Positions 10,202 through 26,318 of a DNA stretch of 26,318 nt are shown here, in pieces. The notes under the pieces were generated by a model. It did no database searches. It was not told where the DNA came from and saw nothing but the letters and a program-made list of their open reading frames with translations. Every line of letters starts with the position of its first letter. The first letter of the stretch is position 1. Origin of the DNA: a virus; IMG/VR virus record IMGVR_UViG_3300023179_000446, positions 1-26,318 of that record; one strand, given 5' to 3'. Position numbers and translations under genes: made by a program.

Positions 10202-13200
10202 TTAAGCCCCTGGATTGTTCTTTGATTTGACGATATTTCCTGTCTTCTTATTTCTCCAGAAGCCTTTTGGTCCTTCTACCCAGTCGCTCTTTCTTCCGGA
10301 TTTTTTGGTGCTGCCATTCCCGGTATCGCCAGATACATCAGTGCCATCGCCGAATAGAATCTCTACGAGAGCCTGTGCGCTTGAGTTCCCGGTGGTTTTG
10401 ATATTAAAAATAACATCATTCTTAAACTCATTGCCTCCGAGCTTGACAAGTTTCTCTATGATGTTACTAATTTTTTCCGCAGACCTAGCAAGTGGGCCAT
10501 TGGCTTTATCTAGGTTTTTAGCCGTGCTATTAAATGCCGAAGGAAGTCTCTGAGCCCCTTTATTAAGCTCAGTAACTAAATTGATCGCCTCTTTTAATGG
10601 ATCGAATCCGTCACTGGCATCTTTTGCCGCATCATTAAGCTCTTTGTTGACATTGGTAATATCGCCAGTTGTTTTATTGAACTTAAATCCAAGCTCTTCT
10701 AAGCGTCCAAGAATCTCAATAACGGCAGCGTCTCCAGCATTGGCAAACTGCTCAAATGTAGTTATCCCACTTTCATCGAGTGCCCTGAAGAATTTATCTA
10801 CAGTATCTTTATCAAATACACTTAAAAGCTCCTGCCTGAGCCCGCCGAGGTCTGGCTTCGGGACTTGTGAGATAAAGTTCTCGTATGCCTTGCTCGCATC
10901 CTCCAATGCTTTCCGAGCTTGCGCTATTTGCTCAGGTCCAACGGCAGCAAGAAGCTGTGCGTTCGCAACGTCGATTGCGGCTCTTAGCTGATCTCCCTGA
11001 GCTCGCCTAAGTTTAGATCCCTCTTGAGTAAACTTTTCAGAATATTCGGCAAAGATATCTGTAAAGGCATCTATGCTGACTCGTCCACCTTTTTTACCAG
11101 CGTCTATAAGATTTTTGAACGCTTGGGATACAGCGCCAGTAGCGTTTGGTATGCCAGCGCCAAGAAGCTCCTTTGTCTTCTTGATTTCATCATTAACCTG
11201 CTTAATGCTAAGCCTACCAGCGAGGAACCCTTGAACCAATATATCTATATTCTTTTCGGCGGTAACGCCGACAGTTCTTAAAACAACGCCAAGGGAATTG
11301 CTATCTCGGATGAACGGCAACACCCCCTGTATGTTTATGTCCTTAAACTTATTGGTCGTGTCTTCTACTTTCTTATTCAGGTCGCCAAGGATATTCTCTA
11401 CTTTGTTTAGTTGCTTTGCATATTCTGCAAGTTTTTTTGCACTAGCCTCAGCGCCTTTATCAAGTTCTGCGTTGTAGGCTTTTTCTAACCTGTCTCGTTT
11501 AATTACGTTGGCAAGAACCTCTTGCTGAAGTTTTGCAATCGCCTTTCCAGCTGCTGTCTGACTAAGCTGCTTATTATTTATCTGGTCAAGTATGTTGGAA
11601 TAAGCCGTGGACTGTTGAACAAGCTTGCGAGCCTCGTCTGTCTGCTTTTTCAGAAGCTCTGCCGCTATTTCCTCTGGAGTCTTCTCTTTCTTTCGGCCAC
11701 TACCCCTTGATGTTGTGCTCGGGACTACTGGCACAGAAGCAAGTGGGGCCTCAGCATTTTGTCTAATTGAATTAATGTTCTTAATAAGAGTAATTAACTG
11801 CTCGTCTGTTGCCTTAGCAAGTTGTTGAAGGCTGGTTATCCCACTTAATCGCAGCGCTTCAAACAATCTAGTTTGCTGCTGCGCTGTAAAATTAAACGTC
11901 TGCCCAAGGCTTGAAATTACACTCTCAAATGAAGCTGCGACCTCTTGCCCCTCTGCGCCAATATCTCTAAGAGAGTCGAGTGCATATTGCCCAGGCTGAT
12001 CATTCTGAAGAGATGTATTGAGATTATTGATCGCCTGCTTAAAGTCACCAATCGCCCCAGGGATTCCTTCTGAGTAAATGTTTTGAAGCTGAACAAGTGA
12101 ATTATACGCTTCTTCTGCAGTAAGCTGAGCATCTCTGAATGCTTTTAGAATTGCTTTAGAGAGGTCTTCAAAGGTTTCTCCAGTCTGCTGAACAAGCACC
12201 TGAAGATTCTGAAGGCTTCCGCCAATGTTATTGGAAATTGCAGTGCCAATAAGCCGTGCCTGCTCATTAGAAATACCCTGAAGCTTTCCTATCGCAAGGC
12301 CGATGCCATTGAATGCGTTTTGCACTCCAGCGGAGAGGGTATTGAAGTAGTTAAAAAAACCTTCGCCGCCAAACTGAACCTGTCCAGCGAATGGCGTGAA
12401 TCCTTCAAATACAAGATCCGAAAGTCTTTGTAATTGCGGCCTAGCCTCCTGAAGAGTCTCTCCAATAGTAAGGATGCCATTGGATACTGCAGTCTGAACT
12501 TGCCCTTGAATAACTACGCCAAGACGTCCGCCGTCAAACAGCTCTCCAAAGTATTTGTCGATCCGTTTACGCTCTTTAGTGCTGGCGAGATCTTGAGTGT
12601 TCCTCACGATATATTCGCCAACAAGCCTTCCGACTATTCCTCCGATTTCGCCGCCCAATACCGTTCCGATTTGAGTTCCAATCTGCGGCGCATCATTTCT
12701 TGTGAATTCAGTGAATGCTAAATCGATGGCAAGATTAAGGCCATCCGTGAGCGCCTTAGCAACCTCAGCCTCAAACCCGGCAAACGTCTCTGATCCAGTT
12801 ATCGATTGAAGTTGTGCCTGCGTTTCCTTTGAGAAAGACCCGCTGGTATCAAAGCCAAAGAAGCCACCGCCTTGCTGCCTTCCCTCTGCGTCCTTATCGA
12901 TGCCACGAAGGGCGTCTCGAAGGTTAATTGTGCCCTGTCGAGCCTCAGCGAGTTGTTGATTATAACGCTGAATCTCTCTAGTCTTTTCAGCGCTGACTAA
13001 AAGCTTCTCGTCTGGTGCTTGCTGCTTAAGCTCATTAAGCCCCTTAACTTCTTTCTCAAAAGCCTTATAATCGCCACCAGCTTTTAAGAATGCAGCCCCA
13101 ATAGCTCTTATTTTTTCTGCAAGCTCATCCGCATCGTTTTGCGGATCGTTGAAAACATCTAGAAGCTGCTGTTGAATATCGTTCGGAATTGCACGATCTA

Positions 13201-15478
13201 ATGCTCTGTTAAGACCCTTGGCAAGCTCTTCGAGCTGCTGTTCCTGCTTTTTGAGTGCCTTTGTTGTATCGTCGACTGGCTTAGTGGCCTTTCTGGTTCC
13301 CTTAGTGGCATTGACAATAGCAGCCTCAAGAGCTTTAAAGTTTACCCTGGTTATCCCTGCTCCCTTCGATAATTGATCGAGCCCTCCTTTAATACCAGTG
13401 AGCGCATCTTTCGCTTGGCCTATTTTGCCGCTGCTGATTGCCCCTGCAAAAACACCTACATCCTTGGCTAGGTCTGCAAAAGAAGATTTAGTAGCAGCAG
13501 CAGAAACGTCTTGCTCTATTTTTTTAAGAGCGTTGGTATACTTCTCAACGGCAGCTGTATCCCTTAAGCTATCATCAAATTCTTGCTTTGCAGTTTTAAG
13601 ATCCGAGAAAATTTTCGCTGCCTGGGGGTCTCCTATTCCAGGGATCTTAAATATTCCAGCCTCTCGCTCGCCCTGCGTCCTAAGGTCTGCAAATAGGCTT
13701 GATATCTGAGAACGAGCAGCAATTACTTCGCTGTTATCGACATTTATCTTAATTCCTTTTTCGCCTTCTCCACGAAGCAGAGCGATTTCTGCTCGCAGGC
13801 CCTTTGCTTCTTCCTGTGTTCTTTGAAGCGCCGCATCAACGTCGGCAAACCTTGGATTGCCAAGAGTAAAGCCTTCGCTTTTCATCTTGTCTCTTAGTTC
13901 GACAAGTTTTTTTGTTCTATTTTCTACAGCAGCGAGTGACTTTTCTAGGTCATTAGCTTTTTCTGCGCCGTTTCTTAGATCAAAGAACAGGTCAATAAAT
14001 TCTACCAATGCAACCTTTGCAAGAACAAAAGGCTCTTTTAAGGTAGTTGCTACTCTCTTCGTTATTCCAGATAGAGTGCCAAGTATTAATCCAAATCTTT
14101 CGCTTGCTGATGCGCTTAATTCAGCTAAGGCAGCCTGTTCTTTATAAGCAAAAATGAGTAATTGAGAAGCATTAAACCCTTGACTGAATTTTGTATTGGC
14201 GTTCTCTTGCGCCGCCTGTAGCTTCTGAAGAGATGTACCAACAGTATCTAATACTTCTGGAAGCTCTTCGGCTCTCTCCTTAATCTTCTTAAGAGATTCA
14301 GCAAAGAATGCCGCCTTCTTCTCTGCGTCAGTTAGATCGTTAGCGCTCTTGCCAACAGATAGGGCGAAATTCTTATATGCCTCTTCTGCGCTTACAATAA
14401 TACCAAGGTTGTCGAGGTAGAGTCGTGACTGACGACCGAGTCCAAGAGAAAGAGACTCAAGGCCAAATGCAGCATCGATTCCCATCGCCCTGCCAAGCTT
14501 AACTGCAGCTGCTGCGGCTTCGTTGAATACATCAGTTGGAACTCCAAGGAGAACCGCTTGGTTCGCTCTTTGATAAAGGTCTACGTCAGATACAAGGCCT
14601 TGCGTTGCTTTTCTCAATGCCTCAATCGACTTGGTCGGATCTTGTCCGATTGTTCTTTGAAGAGTTTGGAAGCCAGCGTTTAGTCCTTCTACTTTACCCG
14701 CTTGCGCCGCAAGGTCGTTAATGGCCTTATCGAGCTTTATGATAGCGCCGACTGCTGCAACAACTCCAGCGATTGTTCCGCCAACAACTCCGAGGCTCTT
14801 GAAGTTATTAATGAATGCGCCGAATCCTACGTTCACATTGCCAAACTGCAAGGACAGTGCGGCTATGCTGTTCTTAAACGCATCGACAAGCTTGCCATCG
14901 CCAGCGGTATCACCAAGGCCACCCCTTGGGGTCTTCTTAATCTTGGCAGTCTCTCTGTTGATGGCCGCAATATTCTCTAAGATTTGAGTGCGAAGAGTCT
15001 TTTCTGCTTCGGCCTTCTCTCTCGCAGCCGCTTCTGCAGCACGAACCTCAAGCGTCTTTAATTTAATAGCATTATCAGCCGCTCGTTGGTCGGCCTTGAT
15101 CTTCTCATCAGAAGCTCTTTGCGCTGCGGCGATTTGCTGTTGCGCTGCAGTCTGAGCTTCCTTCGCCGCAGACTGATACTTAAGCTTCGTGATCGCAATT
15201 TCAGGATTCGCATTCGCTAATGCTTCTAAGTGTCTTCTGCGCTCTGCAGCTGCCTCGTTCTCAAGGGCCTTAATCTGAATGCGCTCCTTAGACTCAATGT
15301 CCTTAATAAGGACAGCGCTCATGTTCTTAGAGAGCCCCTCTATCTTTTTGAACTGAGCTTCAGTGCTCTTAAGACTATTCTCTAACGCCTTCTTAAGTTC
15401 TTCGGCAGATTTAATGGCCTCTTCGGTATCAAGAGTTACATTAATCTTAATGTCATTTGAGTCACCGAATCCTGCCAT
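10202..15478 (-). CDS. Tape measure protein
   Basis: At 1758 residues this is by far the longest complete gene and directly follows the frameshifting chaperone, the canonical tape-measure place. Residues 20-190 are a long alanine-, lysine- and glutamate-rich coiled coil. A hydrophobic segment lies at about 229-248 (GVVGGTIAGVVAAVGAII) and a second glycine-rich hydrophobic region near 925-955. Long helical stretches with charged repeats fill the rest, plus a basic linker GRKKEKTPEE near 1275. No lysozyme or NlpC/P60 motif is apparent. Using the known rough proportion of 0.15 nm per residue, the tail would be near 260 nm. The ATG shares one base with the TAA of the upstream frame (TAATG). It ends 10 bases before the next gene. 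Confidence 0.93.
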   Translation of the reverse strand: MAGFGDSNDIKINVTLDTEEAIKSAEELKKALENSLKSTEAQFKKIEGLSKNMSAVLIKDIESKERIQIKALENEAAAERRRHLEALANANPEIAITKLKYQSAAKEAQTAAQQQIAAAQRASDEKIKADQRAADNAIKLKTLEVRAAEAAAREKAEAEKTLRTQILENIAAINRETAKIKKTPRGGLGDTAGDGKLVDAFKNSIAALSLQFGNVNVGFGAFINNFKSLGVVGGTIAGVVAAVGAIIKLDKAINDLAAQAGKVEGLNAGFQTLQRTIGQDPTKSIEALRKATQGLVSDVDLYQRANQAVLLGVPTDVFNEAAAAAVKLGRAMGIDAAFGLESLSLGLGRQSRLYLDNLGIIVSAEEAYKNFALSVGKSANDLTDAEKKAAFFAESLKKIKERAEELPEVLDTVGTSLQKLQAAQENANTKFSQGFNASQLLIFAYKEQAALAELSASASERFGLILGTLSGITKRVATTLKEPFVLAKVALVEFIDLFFDLRNGAEKANDLEKSLAAVENRTKKLVELRDKMKSEGFTLGNPRFADVDAALQRTQEEAKGLRAEIALLRGEGEKGIKINVDNSEVIAARSQISSLFADLRTQGEREAGIFKIPGIGDPQAAKIFSDLKTAKQEFDDSLRDTAAVEKYTNALKKIEQDVSAAATKSSFADLAKDVGVFAGAISSGKIGQAKDALTGIKGGLDQLSKGAGITRVNFKALEAAIVNATKGTRKATKPVDDTTKALKKQEQQLEELAKGLNRALDRAIPNDIQQQLLDVFNDPQNDADELAEKIRAIGAAFLKAGGDYKAFEKEVKGLNELKQQAPDEKLLVSAEKTREIQRYNQQLAEARQGTINLRDALRGIDKDAEGRQQGGGFFGFDTSGSFSKETQAQLQSITGSETFAGFEAEVAKALTDGLNLAIDLAFTEFTRNDAPQIGTQIGTVLGGEIGGIVGRLVGEYIVRNTQDLASTKERKRIDKYFGELFDGGRLGVVIQGQVQTAVSNGILTIGETLQEARPQLQRLSDLVFEGFTPFAGQVQFGGEGFFNYFNTLSAGVQNAFNGIGLAIGKLQGISNEQARLIGTAISNNIGGSLQNLQVLVQQTGETFEDLSKAILKAFRDAQLTAEEAYNSLVQLQNIYSEGIPGAIGDFKQAINNLNTSLQNDQPGQYALDSLRDIGAEGQEVAASFESVISSLGQTFNFTAQQQTRLFEALRLSGITSLQQLAKATDEQLITLIKNINSIRQNAEAPLASVPVVPSTTSRGSGRKKEKTPEEIAAELLKKQTDEARKLVQQSTAYSNILDQINNKQLSQTAAGKAIAKLQQEVLANVIKRDRLEKAYNAELDKGAEASAKKLAEYAKQLNKVENILGDLNKKVEDTTNKFKDINIQGVLPFIRDSNSLGVVLRTVGVTAEKNIDILVQGFLAGRLSIKQVNDEIKKTKELLGAGIPNATGAVSQAFKNLIDAGKKGGRVSIDAFTDIFAEYSEKFTQEGSKLRRAQGDQLRAAIDVANAQLLAAVGPEQIAQARKALEDASKAYENFISQVPKPDLGGLRQELLSVFDKDTVDKFFRALDESGITTFEQFANAGDAAVIEILGRLEELGFKFNKTTGDITNVNKELNDAAKDASDGFDPLKEAINLVTELNKGAQRLPSAFNSTAKNLDKANGPLARSAEKISNIIEKLVKLGGNEFKNDVIFNIKTTGNSSAQALVEILFGDGTDVSGDTGNGSTKKSGRKSDWVEGPKGFWRNKKTGNIVKSKNNPGA

Positions 15479-16130
15479 TACTTTACTTTCGCCTTGCTGT
15501 TCTTCTTAGCGCTCCACTCCCTATATTCCGCTAGAACCGCTCTCATCTCCAAGATGGTTTCTGCGCTTTCGTCGGCAAGGCCGCTCTCCTTCAGAAGTCT
15601 TTCCTGAAAAGATGCATACCCTGGCGTCATAGATAGGATCTCTACCTGCAGGAATGCGTCAGCAAGTTCGTTAAGTCGCTTGTTCCCTGCTATCTCCACG
15701 ATAGGACATAGATTGGATAAGCAAGCTGGCTTCTTATTATTTTTGATGTAAAGGATGTGACAGTTTCCGCAGTTAAGACCAGGCTCAAAGAGCCTGTACC
15801 TTACCAGCCTAACTAGTTCACTGTTACGTCGTTTTTTGGGTCCGCCTCCCCCTTCATGCCTTCAACGATGGCTTTAGACCATGCTTGAATAAGCTGGAAG
15901 AAGAATTTAGCTGAGAACTTCTTATTCTTAAGATCGTCTACAGTAACTGCAGAACCATCCTTATACTCGAAACCACGAAGCTCCCTAAGTTTCGGAAGAA
16001 GAATGTCAGCCTGCTCCTCAAGAGTCTTTCCTGACATCTCAATCATAACGGCCCAATCACGAAGAGTAGGCTCGTCGAATATAGCGACTCCATCGCCAAT
16101 CTTTACGGTAAGGTCATTATCAATAATCAT
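15478..16130 (-). CDS. Tail assembly chaperone GT fusion made by -1 frameshift
   Basis: Ribosomes slipping back one base at the A_AAA_AAC heptamer (15837-15831) leave the 0 frame after codon 100 and continue from 15831 to the TAA at 15478 with no stop, giving a 217-residue fusion. The -1 part is 117 residues. It starts RRNSELVRLV, has four cysteines in CGNC (121, 124) and CLSNLC (137, 142) that resemble a small zinc ribbon, then a helical domain with LNELADAFLQVEIL and VLAEYREWSAKK. In lambda the G and GT products bind the tape measure and tail tube protein during tail assembly, and the T part is reached in the same way. The part from 15699 alone would need a GTG start with no good ribosome-binding site, so fusion is the better reading. 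Confidence 0.82.
15780..15796 (-). promoter_or_regulatory. Hairpin downstream of the slippery site
   Basis: CAGGCTC and GAGCCTG form a perfect 7-bp stem around a three-base loop. It starts about 35 bases after the heptamer, farther than the five to nine bases typical of frameshift stimulators, so a stimulatory role is uncertain. It lies within the -1 reading frame and has no U-tract, so it is not a terminator. Confidence 0.4.
15813..16130 (-). CDS. Tail assembly chaperone G, 0-frame product
   Basis: The 105-residue 0-frame product lies between the major tail protein and the tape measure, where gpG-type chaperones sit. It opens MIIDNDLTVKIGDGVAIFDE, then helical segments LRDWAVMIEMSGKTLEEQAD and KFFFQLIQAWSKAIVEGMKG. 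It ends DPKNDVTVN, five codons past the slip site. The ATG at 16130 has AAGGG about nine bases upstream. It should be made in excess of the fusion product, as the 0-frame stop is close after the heptamer. Family assignment is from position, size and frameshift layout rather than strong sequence identity. Confidence 0.8.
   Translation of the reverse strand: MIIDNDLTVKIGDGVAIFDEPTLRDWAVMIEMSGKTLEEQADILLPKLRELRGFEYKDGSAVTVDDLKNKKFSAKFFFQLIQAWSKAIVEGMKGEADPKNDVTVN
15831..15840 (-). promoter_or_regulatory. Programmed -1 frameshift slippery site
   Basis: The minus strand reads CCCAAAAAAC. With 0-frame codons CCA AAA AAC this contains a canonical X_XXY_YYZ heptamer A_AAA_AAC (15837-15831), and CCCAAAA overlaps it as a second possible slip site. 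The 0 frame stops at 15813, while the -1 frame runs on to 15478. Both tRNAs can re-pair after slipping at A_AAA_AAC. Efficiency cannot be judged from the sequence. Confidence 0.82.
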
Positions 16131-16168: not shown

Positions 16169-16196
16169 AATATATAGAAAGGGCAGCATAGCTCAA
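16169..16196 (-). promoter_or_regulatory. Candidate sigma70-like promoter before chaperone gene
   Basis: TTGAGC (16196-16191) and TATATT (16174-16169) are separated by 16 bases, with four of six and five of six consensus matches. The -35 lies in the loop and stem edge of the hairpin after the major tail protein. It could restart transcription of the chaperone and tape measure. The host sigma factor is unknown, so this remains a weak candidate. Confidence 0.28.
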
Positions 16197-16214
16197 GAGA
16201 CCTATGCTGCCCTT
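16179..16214 (-). terminator. Terminator-like hairpin after major tail protein
   Basis: A perfect 13-bp inverted repeat, AAGGGCAGCATAG and its complement, encloses a ten-base loop and lies 20 bases beyond the major tail stop. On the minus strand it is followed by TTTCTATATATT, an imperfect U-tract. It is probably a partial terminator or a 3' mRNA stabiliser that raises major tail protein over downstream genes. Confidence 0.68.
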
Positions 16215-16233: not shown

Positions 16234-17298
16234 TTAAGCAAGCAGGGAGGTTGCAAGCGTATTTACAATCTCGAAGTACGGATATGTGCTTCCGCTCATT
16301 CCCGTAGGAGTTGTCGCAGCCTTAAGGAGGCGGAACTCCATCGAAAGGGTGTTTGTGCCCTGGTCAGTAACGGCATACTGCGGCTCAGTTACCAACAACA
16401 TGCGAGGGATGTAAATCGAGAACGACTTGTTCGTGCCCGTGCCAATCTGCGTACCCTCAATCTGGATGAGAGCTTTACGAGCCGTCTCAGCGCTCCAGAT
16501 TGTGTAGTAGGCATGGTCAGCGAGCTCTTTAACGTCAATGCTCAATGTCCCTTCAAAGAGATCCGTTGAGATAGGAGCGGAGTTGCCTGCACTGCCCTTA
16601 ATCTCAGGGATAATCTCTTGTGGACGGCTAAGAGCAAGGTTGAAGCCAGTGATGTTGTACTGGTCTCCAGAGCCTACTGCTGCACCGCTTTGTGCGTTTG
16701 TGCGAAACTTGTCTACAAGGTCAACAGCTACAAGCTCTGGAACGCCTTCACTGAAGGTGCAGTTCGCAAGCGTAGCGTTTGTATTGGTTGAAGACGAAAG
16801 CTCTACAGCATTAGCCAAGAGCTCTGCTGTAAAGTCCAGATACCCTGGTACGCCAGTTGTAGCAATACCGATGGATTGAACTGCACAGGTTGGGAACTCC
16901 ATAGTCGTTGCAGACGTTGACTCAAATGCCAACGTAACGTACTTGCTATTCAATGTAGTATTGAATGTAAGAGTATGCTTGTAATCGCCCTGCGTGGCAG
17001 TTACCTCAGTTGGCGCTCCAGATGTTCCCATGAACTGCGCCAAGAGAATATCGCAGTTATTGCGATAGCCAAGGTCAGCAGTAAGGGAAACAGTCGGAAT
17101 AACTGAACCACGGGTTGCAGTGTTCAACATGTAGTTGCCTGACCCGATTTGACGTGCTGTAATTTCCGACACGTTGAAGCTCGGCGATATTTCACCAGTA
17201 AAGCTATTTGTAGCTCCGCAGGCTACTGCCGTTCCCCAAGTTGACGCAATCTTCACGCCCGCTTTAGTTTGTGCTCCTGTAATACTAACAGCTCCCAT
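16234..17298 (-). CDS. Major tail protein (tail tube)
   Basis: This 354-residue protein starts MGAVSITGAQTKAG, followed by a beta-rich core with many Thr, Ser, Ala and Gly residues, few charges and no membrane segment. The middle holds FSEGVPELVAVDLVDKFRTN; the C-terminal part has IPRMLLVTEPQYAVTDQG and TLSMEFRLL, typical of tube proteins. It comes after a tail-completion-like gene, before the chaperone pair and tape measure, and ends in front of a strong hairpin, as expected for an abundant virion protein. GGAG lies about 13 bases upstream of the ATG, a rather long spacing. The tube assignment rests on order and composition. An extra C-terminal Ig-like domain is not apparent. Confidence 0.8.
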   Translation of the reverse strand: MGAVSITGAQTKAGVKIASTWGTAVACGATNSFTGEISPSFNVSEITARQIGSGNYMLNTATRGSVIPTVSLTADLGYRNNCDILLAQFMGTSGAPTEVTATQGDYKHTLTFNTTLNSKYVTLAFESTSATTMEFPTCAVQSIGIATTGVPGYLDFTAELLANAVELSSSTNTNATLANCTFSEGVPELVAVDLVDKFRTNAQSGAAVGSGDQYNITGFNLALSRPQEIIPEIKGSAGNSAPISTDLFEGTLSIDVKELADHAYYTIWSAETARKALIQIEGTQIGTGTNKSFSIYIPRMLLVTEPQYAVTDQGTNTLSMEFRLLKAATTPTGMSGSTYPYFEIVNTLATSLLA

Positions 17299-18530: not shown

Positions 18531-18718
18531 TATATCTTACCTTCCTTCCTGTCTCGCTCAGCGTTTTTGACCATATCCTTACGGAACGAGTCCTGGCTTC
18601 TGTCGCCCTCTCCACGATGTTGAGCAATGTTTCTGGCAGTCGCAGATGCTTTCTCAATGCTATCACGCACTTGTCGCTCAGACATCTTCTCTTTCTGTAG
18701 GTCTACTTTATATCGCAT
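18530..18718 (-). CDS. 62-residue basic hypothetical protein
   Basis: I place the start at ATG 18718, not at a possible 18760, because the shorter form has AGAGGA and AAGGG upstream and overlaps the preceding gene by only 16 bases. The product reads MRYKVDLQKEKMSERQVRDS, then many Lys, Arg, Asp and Glu residues to the end EGKI. It looks like one long charged helix without cysteines or membrane segments. It lies between a cysteine-rich gene and the adaptor. No family is recognised. Confidence 0.62.
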   Translation of the reverse strand: MRYKVDLQKEKMSERQVRDSIEKASATARNIAQHRGEGDRSQDSFRKDMVKNAERDRKEGKI

Positions 18719-19047
18719 GGCCCTTTTTCCTCTAGTAGTTCTGGATGTGCATAGCAGCATTTATCCATTATTGCTTGAGGCATCCATCCGTTGGCTATAA
18801 TGTCTTTTATGCGTCCACAATAGAAATTATAGACAATAGGCTGCCCATCTACATCTTTGTCCTTCTTGGACTTCCAGCGGCCAACCACGACAAGCGGCTG
18901 ATCACTTAACTGCCCATATCTCTTTTGATACACAGAGCATGAGCGGTCGCCAGATAGTCGAGGACAAACTACAGCATCCTCTCCTGGCGGATATAGTGTG
19001 CAACACTTCCCCCCGCAAACCTTTATGCAGTAGGTGTCTGCGTCCAC
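18703..19047 (-). CDS. YkgJ-like cysteine-cluster protein
   Basis: With a GTG start at 19047, one base after the upstream TAG and six bases after AAGGAAG, the product is 114 residues. A longer form from 19137 would overlap the neighbour by 89 bases and add a lysine-rich segment that looks like out-of-frame reading. It has ten cysteines: 7, 11, 15, 16, 28, 37, 77, 97, 98 and 111. The arrangement CIKVCGGKCC followed by CSVYQKR resembles the YkgJ/UPF0153 family, thought to bind zinc or iron. The reaction, if any, is unknown. In a structural operon, a metal-binding assembly factor or a moron-like accessory gene are both possible. Confidence 0.62.
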   Translation of the reverse strand: MDADTYCIKVCGGKCCTLYPPGEDAVVCPRLSGDRSCSVYQKRYGQLSDQPLVVVGRWKSKKDKDVDGQPIVYNFYCGRIKDIIANGWMPQAIMDKCCYAHPELLEEKGPCDIK

Positions 19048-19048
19048 G

Positions 19049-19405
19049 CTATTCTTCCTTCTTTTGCTTTTCTGACTTGTAGGCAATCTCTTCGGCCTTC
19101 TTACGACCTTCTTCGTAAGACACCTCATGACCGCCATTACGCATCTTCAAGACCTCTTTGGTCGTTGGCACCATTCGCTCGATTGCGTCCCTTGTACGCT
19201 CCTCTGGTGTCATCTGAGTGCGCCAATGCTGAACCTCGGCGTTGGACTCCCACTTTTGTTTTAAGTCTGATGCAGCCTGCGCTTTTTGCTGAGCGTAATG
19301 CTGCTGAAGAGCCTGAAAGGTTGGAAGGGATTCAACAGTCCTCATGATGCCTTTTCGAGGAGGTGGACGTGAGCCAAGGTTTTCTTTCTTGATAAATACG
19401 GCCAT
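19049..19405 (-). CDS. 118-residue charged hypothetical protein
   Basis: It begins MAVFIKKENLGSRPPPRKG, has a Gln/Ala-rich helix QALQQHYAQQKAQAASDLKQ, then MTPEERTRDAIERMVP and ends in a Lys/Glu-rich helix. There is no hydrophobic segment and no cysteine. AAGGA lies about 20 bases upstream, farther than usual, so initiation probably relies on coupling with the gene ending at 19410. It may be a virion-associated or assembly protein; I do not recognise it. Confidence 0.6.
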   Translation of the reverse strand: MAVFIKKENLGSRPPPRKGIMRTVESLPTFQALQQHYAQQKAQAASDLKQKWESNAEVQHWRTQMTPEERTRDAIERMVPTTKEVLKMRNGGHEVSYEEGRKKAEEIAYKSEKQKKEE

Positions 19406-26243: not shown

Positions 26244-26318
26244 CGTGAGGCGTGAGGCGTGAGGCGTGAGGCGTGAGGCGTGAGGCGTGAGGCGTGAGGC
26301 GTGAGGCGTGAGGCGTGA
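26244..26318. repeat. Perfect heptamer tandem array CGTGAGG at window edge
   Basis: Ten full CGTGAGG units plus CGTGA occupy the last 75 bases without a mismatch, and the array is cut by the window end. Units are 7 bp, so binding sites would rotate around the helix rather than stay on one face. It could be a packaging or regulatory array, a genome end, or an assembly artefact where reads collapsed. Confidence 0.9.

Follow-up and report, generated by a model that had tools for sequence, protein, structure and literature searches.

A predicted −1 frameshift in a phage tail assembly chaperone gene leads into a T domain with four invariant cysteines

Does the short gene between the tail tube and tape measure genes of an uncultivated phage encode two proteins, and what might be the role of the four cysteines that only the longer product would contain? 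We examined this question in a 26,318-base stretch of DNA (the window; IMG/VR virus record IMGVR_UViG_3300023179_000446), for which a sequence-only reading had proposed a programmed −1 frameshift followed by a cysteine-rich linker resembling a zinc ribbon. In the interpretation that we favor, and which we hold with good though not full confidence, the gene encodes a siphophage-type chaperone in two products by a −1 slip, and its T domain carries a module of four cysteines, most likely the binding site of one zinc ion.

The reading frames are laid out as the sequence-only reading had described them. The heptamer A_AAA_AAC has the right phase, the 0-frame stop TAG (15815-15813) ends 18 bases past it, and the −1 frame stays open up to the start of the tape measure gene, giving a G-T fusion of 217 amino acids (Table 1). 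The motifs CGNC (15771-15760) and CLSNLC (15723-15706) are both encoded where they had been placed, but ‘linker’ was the wrong word for their surroundings: the cysteines fall at residues 21-42 of a T domain that is 117 residues long and mostly helical.

Table 1. Coordinates of the chaperone gene, its predicted signals and its neighbors in the window.
Feature	Position	Strand	Description
Tail tape measure protein	10202..15478	−	1758 aa; ATG (15478) overlaps the T stop as TAATG
−1-frame T domain	15481..15831	−	117 codons past the slip; stop TAA 15480-15478
Four-cysteine module CX2C-X12-CX4C	15706..15771	−	Cys codons 15771-69, 15762-60, 15723-21, 15708-06; presumed zinc site
Candidate 3′ stimulatory RNA structure	15756..15828	−	outer stem 15828-15820/15764-15756, inner hairpin 15803-15774; moderate support
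0-frame tail assembly chaperone (G-like)	15813..16130	−	105 aa
Slippery heptamer A_AAA_AAC	15831..15837	−	0-frame phase (CCA AAA AAC)
Shine-Dalgarno-like GGGGGAGG	15845..15852	−	ends 7 nt 5′ of the heptamer; presumed 5′ frameshift stimulator
Tail tube (major tail) protein	16234..17298	−	354 aa; upstream neighbor of the chaperone gene

The gene belongs to a minus-strand structural cluster comprising terminase, portal, capsid, head completion, tail tube, chaperone, tape measure and distal tail genes, and the order tube-chaperone-tape measure is found in the window and in its relatives. The tail tube counterparts in relatives L075 and L076 exceed the cut-off of Pfam PF18906 (Phage_tube_2), with nearer homologs aligning with the window protein, and the tape measure homologs of L044 and L043 match PHROG 3779 (tail length tape measure; E = 7.5e-10 and 2.4e-4, respectively). 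In AlphaFold2 the N-domain and the T domain were folded apart, as separate halves. The N-domain (G) model (pLDDT 80) was matched by Foldseek to annotated tail assembly chaperones of Gemini, RcRhea, Finch, Koji and CcrColossus (probability 0.41-0.95, E 0.03-0.5) and to unnamed phage proteins (probability up to 1.0, E 0.004), while the G-like protein of L075 weakly matched three PHROG chaperone families (E 0.05-0.23). Because of the N-domain matches and the gene position, we regard the two predicted products as a pair of the G/GT type in function. The earlier proposal of a G/GT layout with a −1 frameshift thus gains support from conservation, selection and gene order, and less strongly from the N-domain fold. 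Judged from these data, a chaperone pair of the lambda G/GT type made by −1 frameshifting, which is a known kind, is strongly supported; the likeness to lambda is one of function, with no detectable sequence relation.

Several other features of the window were observed in passing. A strong inverted repeat (16179-16214, minus strand) separates the tail tube and chaperone genes, and in most of the closer relatives this position is taken by a hairpin that is just as strong but has another sequence; perhaps it is a partial terminator that sets tube expression above chaperone expression. Amid the head genes, at 18703-19137 (minus strand), is encoded a small cysteine-rich protein (CxxxCGGxCC ... CPxL ... 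CCYAHPELLE), whose position is kept in the relatives checked; by eye it is like CxxCxxCC (YkgJ-like) metal proteins, with no match in Pfam. In the long ORF at 1-2700, near-identical stretches recur at a distance of about 744 bases, including identical 65-residue frames at 631-828 and 1375-1572, which suggests that a repeat was duplicated recently in a tail-fibre-like gene. Finally, CGTGAGG forms a perfect 7-base tandem repeat of 10.7 copies (26244-26318) that reaches the contig end and is possibly an assembly artefact.

When IMG/VR was searched with the fusion and each of its halves, and also with the tail tube and the capsid, 12 distinct homologs of the extension were obtained, several occurring on two or more contigs, so that 13 sequences including the window could be compared. 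No homolog of the extension, such as a prophage copy, was found in GTDB genomes, and tblastn of the fusion, the distant T domains and the capsid against 50,697 phage records returned no relative among named phages. The heptamer is in phase and followed by a −1-frame extension in all 13 sequences, at extension identities to the window as low as 15%, and it takes four forms: A_AAA_AAC in nine, A_AAA_AAG in L057 and L075, A_AAA_AAA in L076 and U_UUU_UUG in L043. Since both phase and extension accompany all four heptamers, the site has remained slippery through changes of its sequence. The L043 site (L043:7965-7971), where A_AAA_AAC has changed to U_UUU_UUG with the phase and the −1 domain retained, is itself a case of slip-site turnover. 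The distance from the heptamer to the 0-frame stop ranges from 6 to 57 bases among distant relatives; the exact value of 18 is not conserved, and thus the slip site and the frame alone are retained. Every contig that was found by capsid or tube and reaches the chaperone slot has this arrangement, with no counterexample. All of these relatives are environmental contigs of one capsid lineage; they therefore represent one clade, and their origins are not independent. Conservation of the heptamer and of the four cysteines, which had been put forward as a check on the proposal, is borne out by the alignment, and a −1-frame stop, looked for in the homologs, is absent.

Selection distinguishes the −1 frame from its alternatives. 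For the seven sequences that align without gaps, pN/pS past the heptamer was 0.15-0.32 in the −1 frame and 0.85-2.5 in the other two frames of the same DNA; the 0-frame gene 5′ of the heptamer had values near those of the −1 frame (0.08-0.28). These ratios rule out a −1 frame that is open by chance, and by this measure the −1-frame extension is a real protein.

The heptamer is flanked by candidate stimulators on both sides. When pairing with the anti-Shine-Dalgarno sequence of 16S rRNA was averaged over the 13 sequences, the best position in the last 300 bases of the gene was 15-12 bases 5′ of the heptamer, with a mean of −6.4 kcal/mol compared to an overall mean of −0.9 (sd 1.45) and −3.9 for the next cluster elsewhere. 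The element is clear in about 11 of the 13 sequences and weak in L013 and L075. Starts of the phage's own genes show Shine-Dalgarno pairing, so the host uses this interaction. Under a null that preserves the codons, no single sequence was significant, because the encoded Glu-Ala residues already favor purines; the evidence for the element is its positional peak across the clade. In L043 the GAGG comes from a different codon phase, suggesting that selection acts at the nucleotide level. We consider this element a probable 5′ frameshift stimulator.

Downstream, RNAalifold predicts an extended stem that starts within three bases 3′ of the heptamer. Five of its pairs have double changes; none of 500 shuffles reached its covariation score, and slid versions attained at most half of it. 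The 90 bases 3′ of the heptamer are also the best-folding part of the gene against the codon-preserving null (mean z −1.8, by a small margin over other parts); z was negative in all ten sequences tested, although uneven between relatives (−0.5 to −3.4). A 3′ RNA structure is thus a possible additional stimulator.

The T domain is distinguished by its cysteines. All four are invariant in the 13 sequences, where they make up half of the eight invariant columns, the others being two prolines, one leucine and one glycine; the G part contains no cysteine in any of them. The spacing CX2C-X12-CX4C is kept in 11 sequences and becomes X12/X8 in L057 and X14/X5 in L075. The AlphaFold2 model of the T domain is helical, with a pLDDT of about 59 over the cysteines and no strands predicted there. 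Compared with the PDB and a viral structure library, this model had no significant fold match, zinc proteins included, and the profile search that the sequence-only reading had proposed for the linker gave nothing significant in Pfam, NCBIfam or PHROGs, zinc-ribbon families included. Chemokines and designed barrels, which appeared in a PDB sequence search, were judged spurious. The zinc-ribbon reading proposed earlier is plausible, with two cysteine pairs conserved in 13 of 13 sequences and no profile or fold match of significance. We found no tail assembly chaperone with a zinc or cysteine module of this kind in the open-licence literature. On the strength of these comparisons the T domain is an undescribed new family with an invariant four-cysteine module, and this module probably binds zinc.

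Could the second product arise in some other way? RNA polymerase slippage on the A (or T) run could reach the −1 frame in place of ribosomal frameshifting, and every homolog does have at least six identical bases (eight A in L076, six T in L043). Bacterial transcriptional slippage is, however, usually described for longer runs, such as runs of nine (PMC5009743). Moreover, it does not require the codon phase X_XXY_YYZ that is seen in 13 of 13 sequences, and a Shine-Dalgarno-like element at a fixed distance is meaningful for ribosomes only; we consider slippage of the polymerase very improbable. It is more improbable still that there are two genes, with a downstream ORF that has its own start or is coupled to the upstream stop. 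The ORF list does contain a GTG-initiated ORF from 15699, but this start falls 3′ of all four cysteines and would leave out the most conserved part, whereas conservation starts at the heptamer. Before the first cysteine the −1 frame has no conserved start codon, and in nine of the 13 sequences none at all from the previous stop onward. Because start codons there are unconserved or absent, translation from a separate start cannot account for the conserved N-terminal portion of T, and we rejected this reading.

A different question is what the cysteines do in the same frameshifted chaperone, where they might be joined in disulfides, act as a redox pair or hold an iron-sulfur cluster instead of zinc. 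Zinc and other ligands are indistinguishable from sequence alone, and the T-domain model comes closest in fold to AhpD-type CxxC redox proteins, but with TM-scores of about 0.4 at 9 Å rmsd we judged these matches insignificant (E 0.25). Such a cysteine pattern in a cytoplasmic protein most often indicates a structural zinc site, and two short-spaced pairs 12 residues apart are typical of structural zinc knuckles, while disulfides are not expected to be needed in a cytoplasmic assembly protein. The closest PDB profile match that aligns the cysteines, the zinc ribbon of ribosomal protein L32, pairs Cys with Cys, although it too is insignificant (E 0.15). We regard a ligand or linkage other than zinc as rather unlikely. 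It is very unlikely that the four-cysteine T domain is a labile switch responsive to metal or redox state, which with metal would keep the tube protein attached to the complex of chaperone and tape measure protein and on losing it would trigger release of the chaperone, coupling assembly to the metal/redox state of the cell.

For the frameshifted chaperone with a structural zinc site, the layout, conservation, selection, cysteine invariance and gene order can be read from the sequences, and we infer from them the slippage, its efficiency and product ratio, zinc binding and tube recruitment. Most ribosomes would terminate at the TAG and release the 105-residue G-like protein, while a minority would slip one base back on the heptamer and make the G-T fusion, held by the Shine-Dalgarno-like element just upstream and possibly also by the RNA structure downstream. 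In lambda, G is the product of most ribosomes and G-T that of a few; the partner of G is the tape measure protein, and the partner of T is the tail tube protein, whose polymerization T initiates (PMC5009743). By analogy, G would coat the tape measure protein, and a few copies of G-T would bring tail tube subunits via the T domain, after which both would leave. The T domain would start with the four-cysteine module, in which one structural zinc ion most likely fixes the fold that contacts the tube.

The tail assembly chaperones gpG and gpGT of lambda are reportedly the subject of work by Xu, Hendrix and Duda. As in the window, they are encoded between the tube and tape measure genes, with a −1 shift near the end of G and a T frame that runs into the tape measure start (PMC5009743). 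Unlike lambda, which has another heptamer and no detectable sequence relation, the window clade has a conserved Shine-Dalgarno-like 5′ element. Lambda T (144 residues) is without cysteine, in agreement with the earlier remark that the cysteine pattern is not one associated with lambda GT. In the literature searched we found no T-domain structure for any G/GT chaperone; in lambda, recruitment of the tail tube by the T domain is known in outline. In Acinetobacter phage Loki (gp12/gp13), AAAAAAC has likewise been proposed for a tail chaperone frameshift, but there it directly adjoins the gp12 stop codon, and the zinc ribbon protein of Loki (gp35) is encoded in a different place, the early/lysis module (PMC5313236). 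E. coli dnaX shares the A-rich heptamer, upstream Shine-Dalgarno element and downstream stem-loop (PMC5009743); its heptamer ends in AAG rather than AAC, and roughly half of the ribosomes change frame and soon terminate there, giving the shorter product, whereas in the window phage the shift would give the longer one. The zinc ribbons L32 and L36 resemble the T-domain module in having two cysteine pairs around a short loop. The CX2C-X12-CX4 spacing of the module is also that of L36. The CX4C form of its second pair sets the window module apart from these ribbons, as do the predicted helical fold of the domain around it and the lack of significant similarity.

The frameshift itself is thus a known phage device, here with a conserved Shine-Dalgarno-like element as probable stimulator in a tail chaperone cassette whose heptamer type has changed within the lineage while the phase was kept, and the new part is the four-cysteine T domain. 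A T-domain family with an invariant, probably metal-binding module offers a compact target for structure work and for point mutants of the four cysteines, with which one can ask simply whether this fold is the part that contacts the tube.
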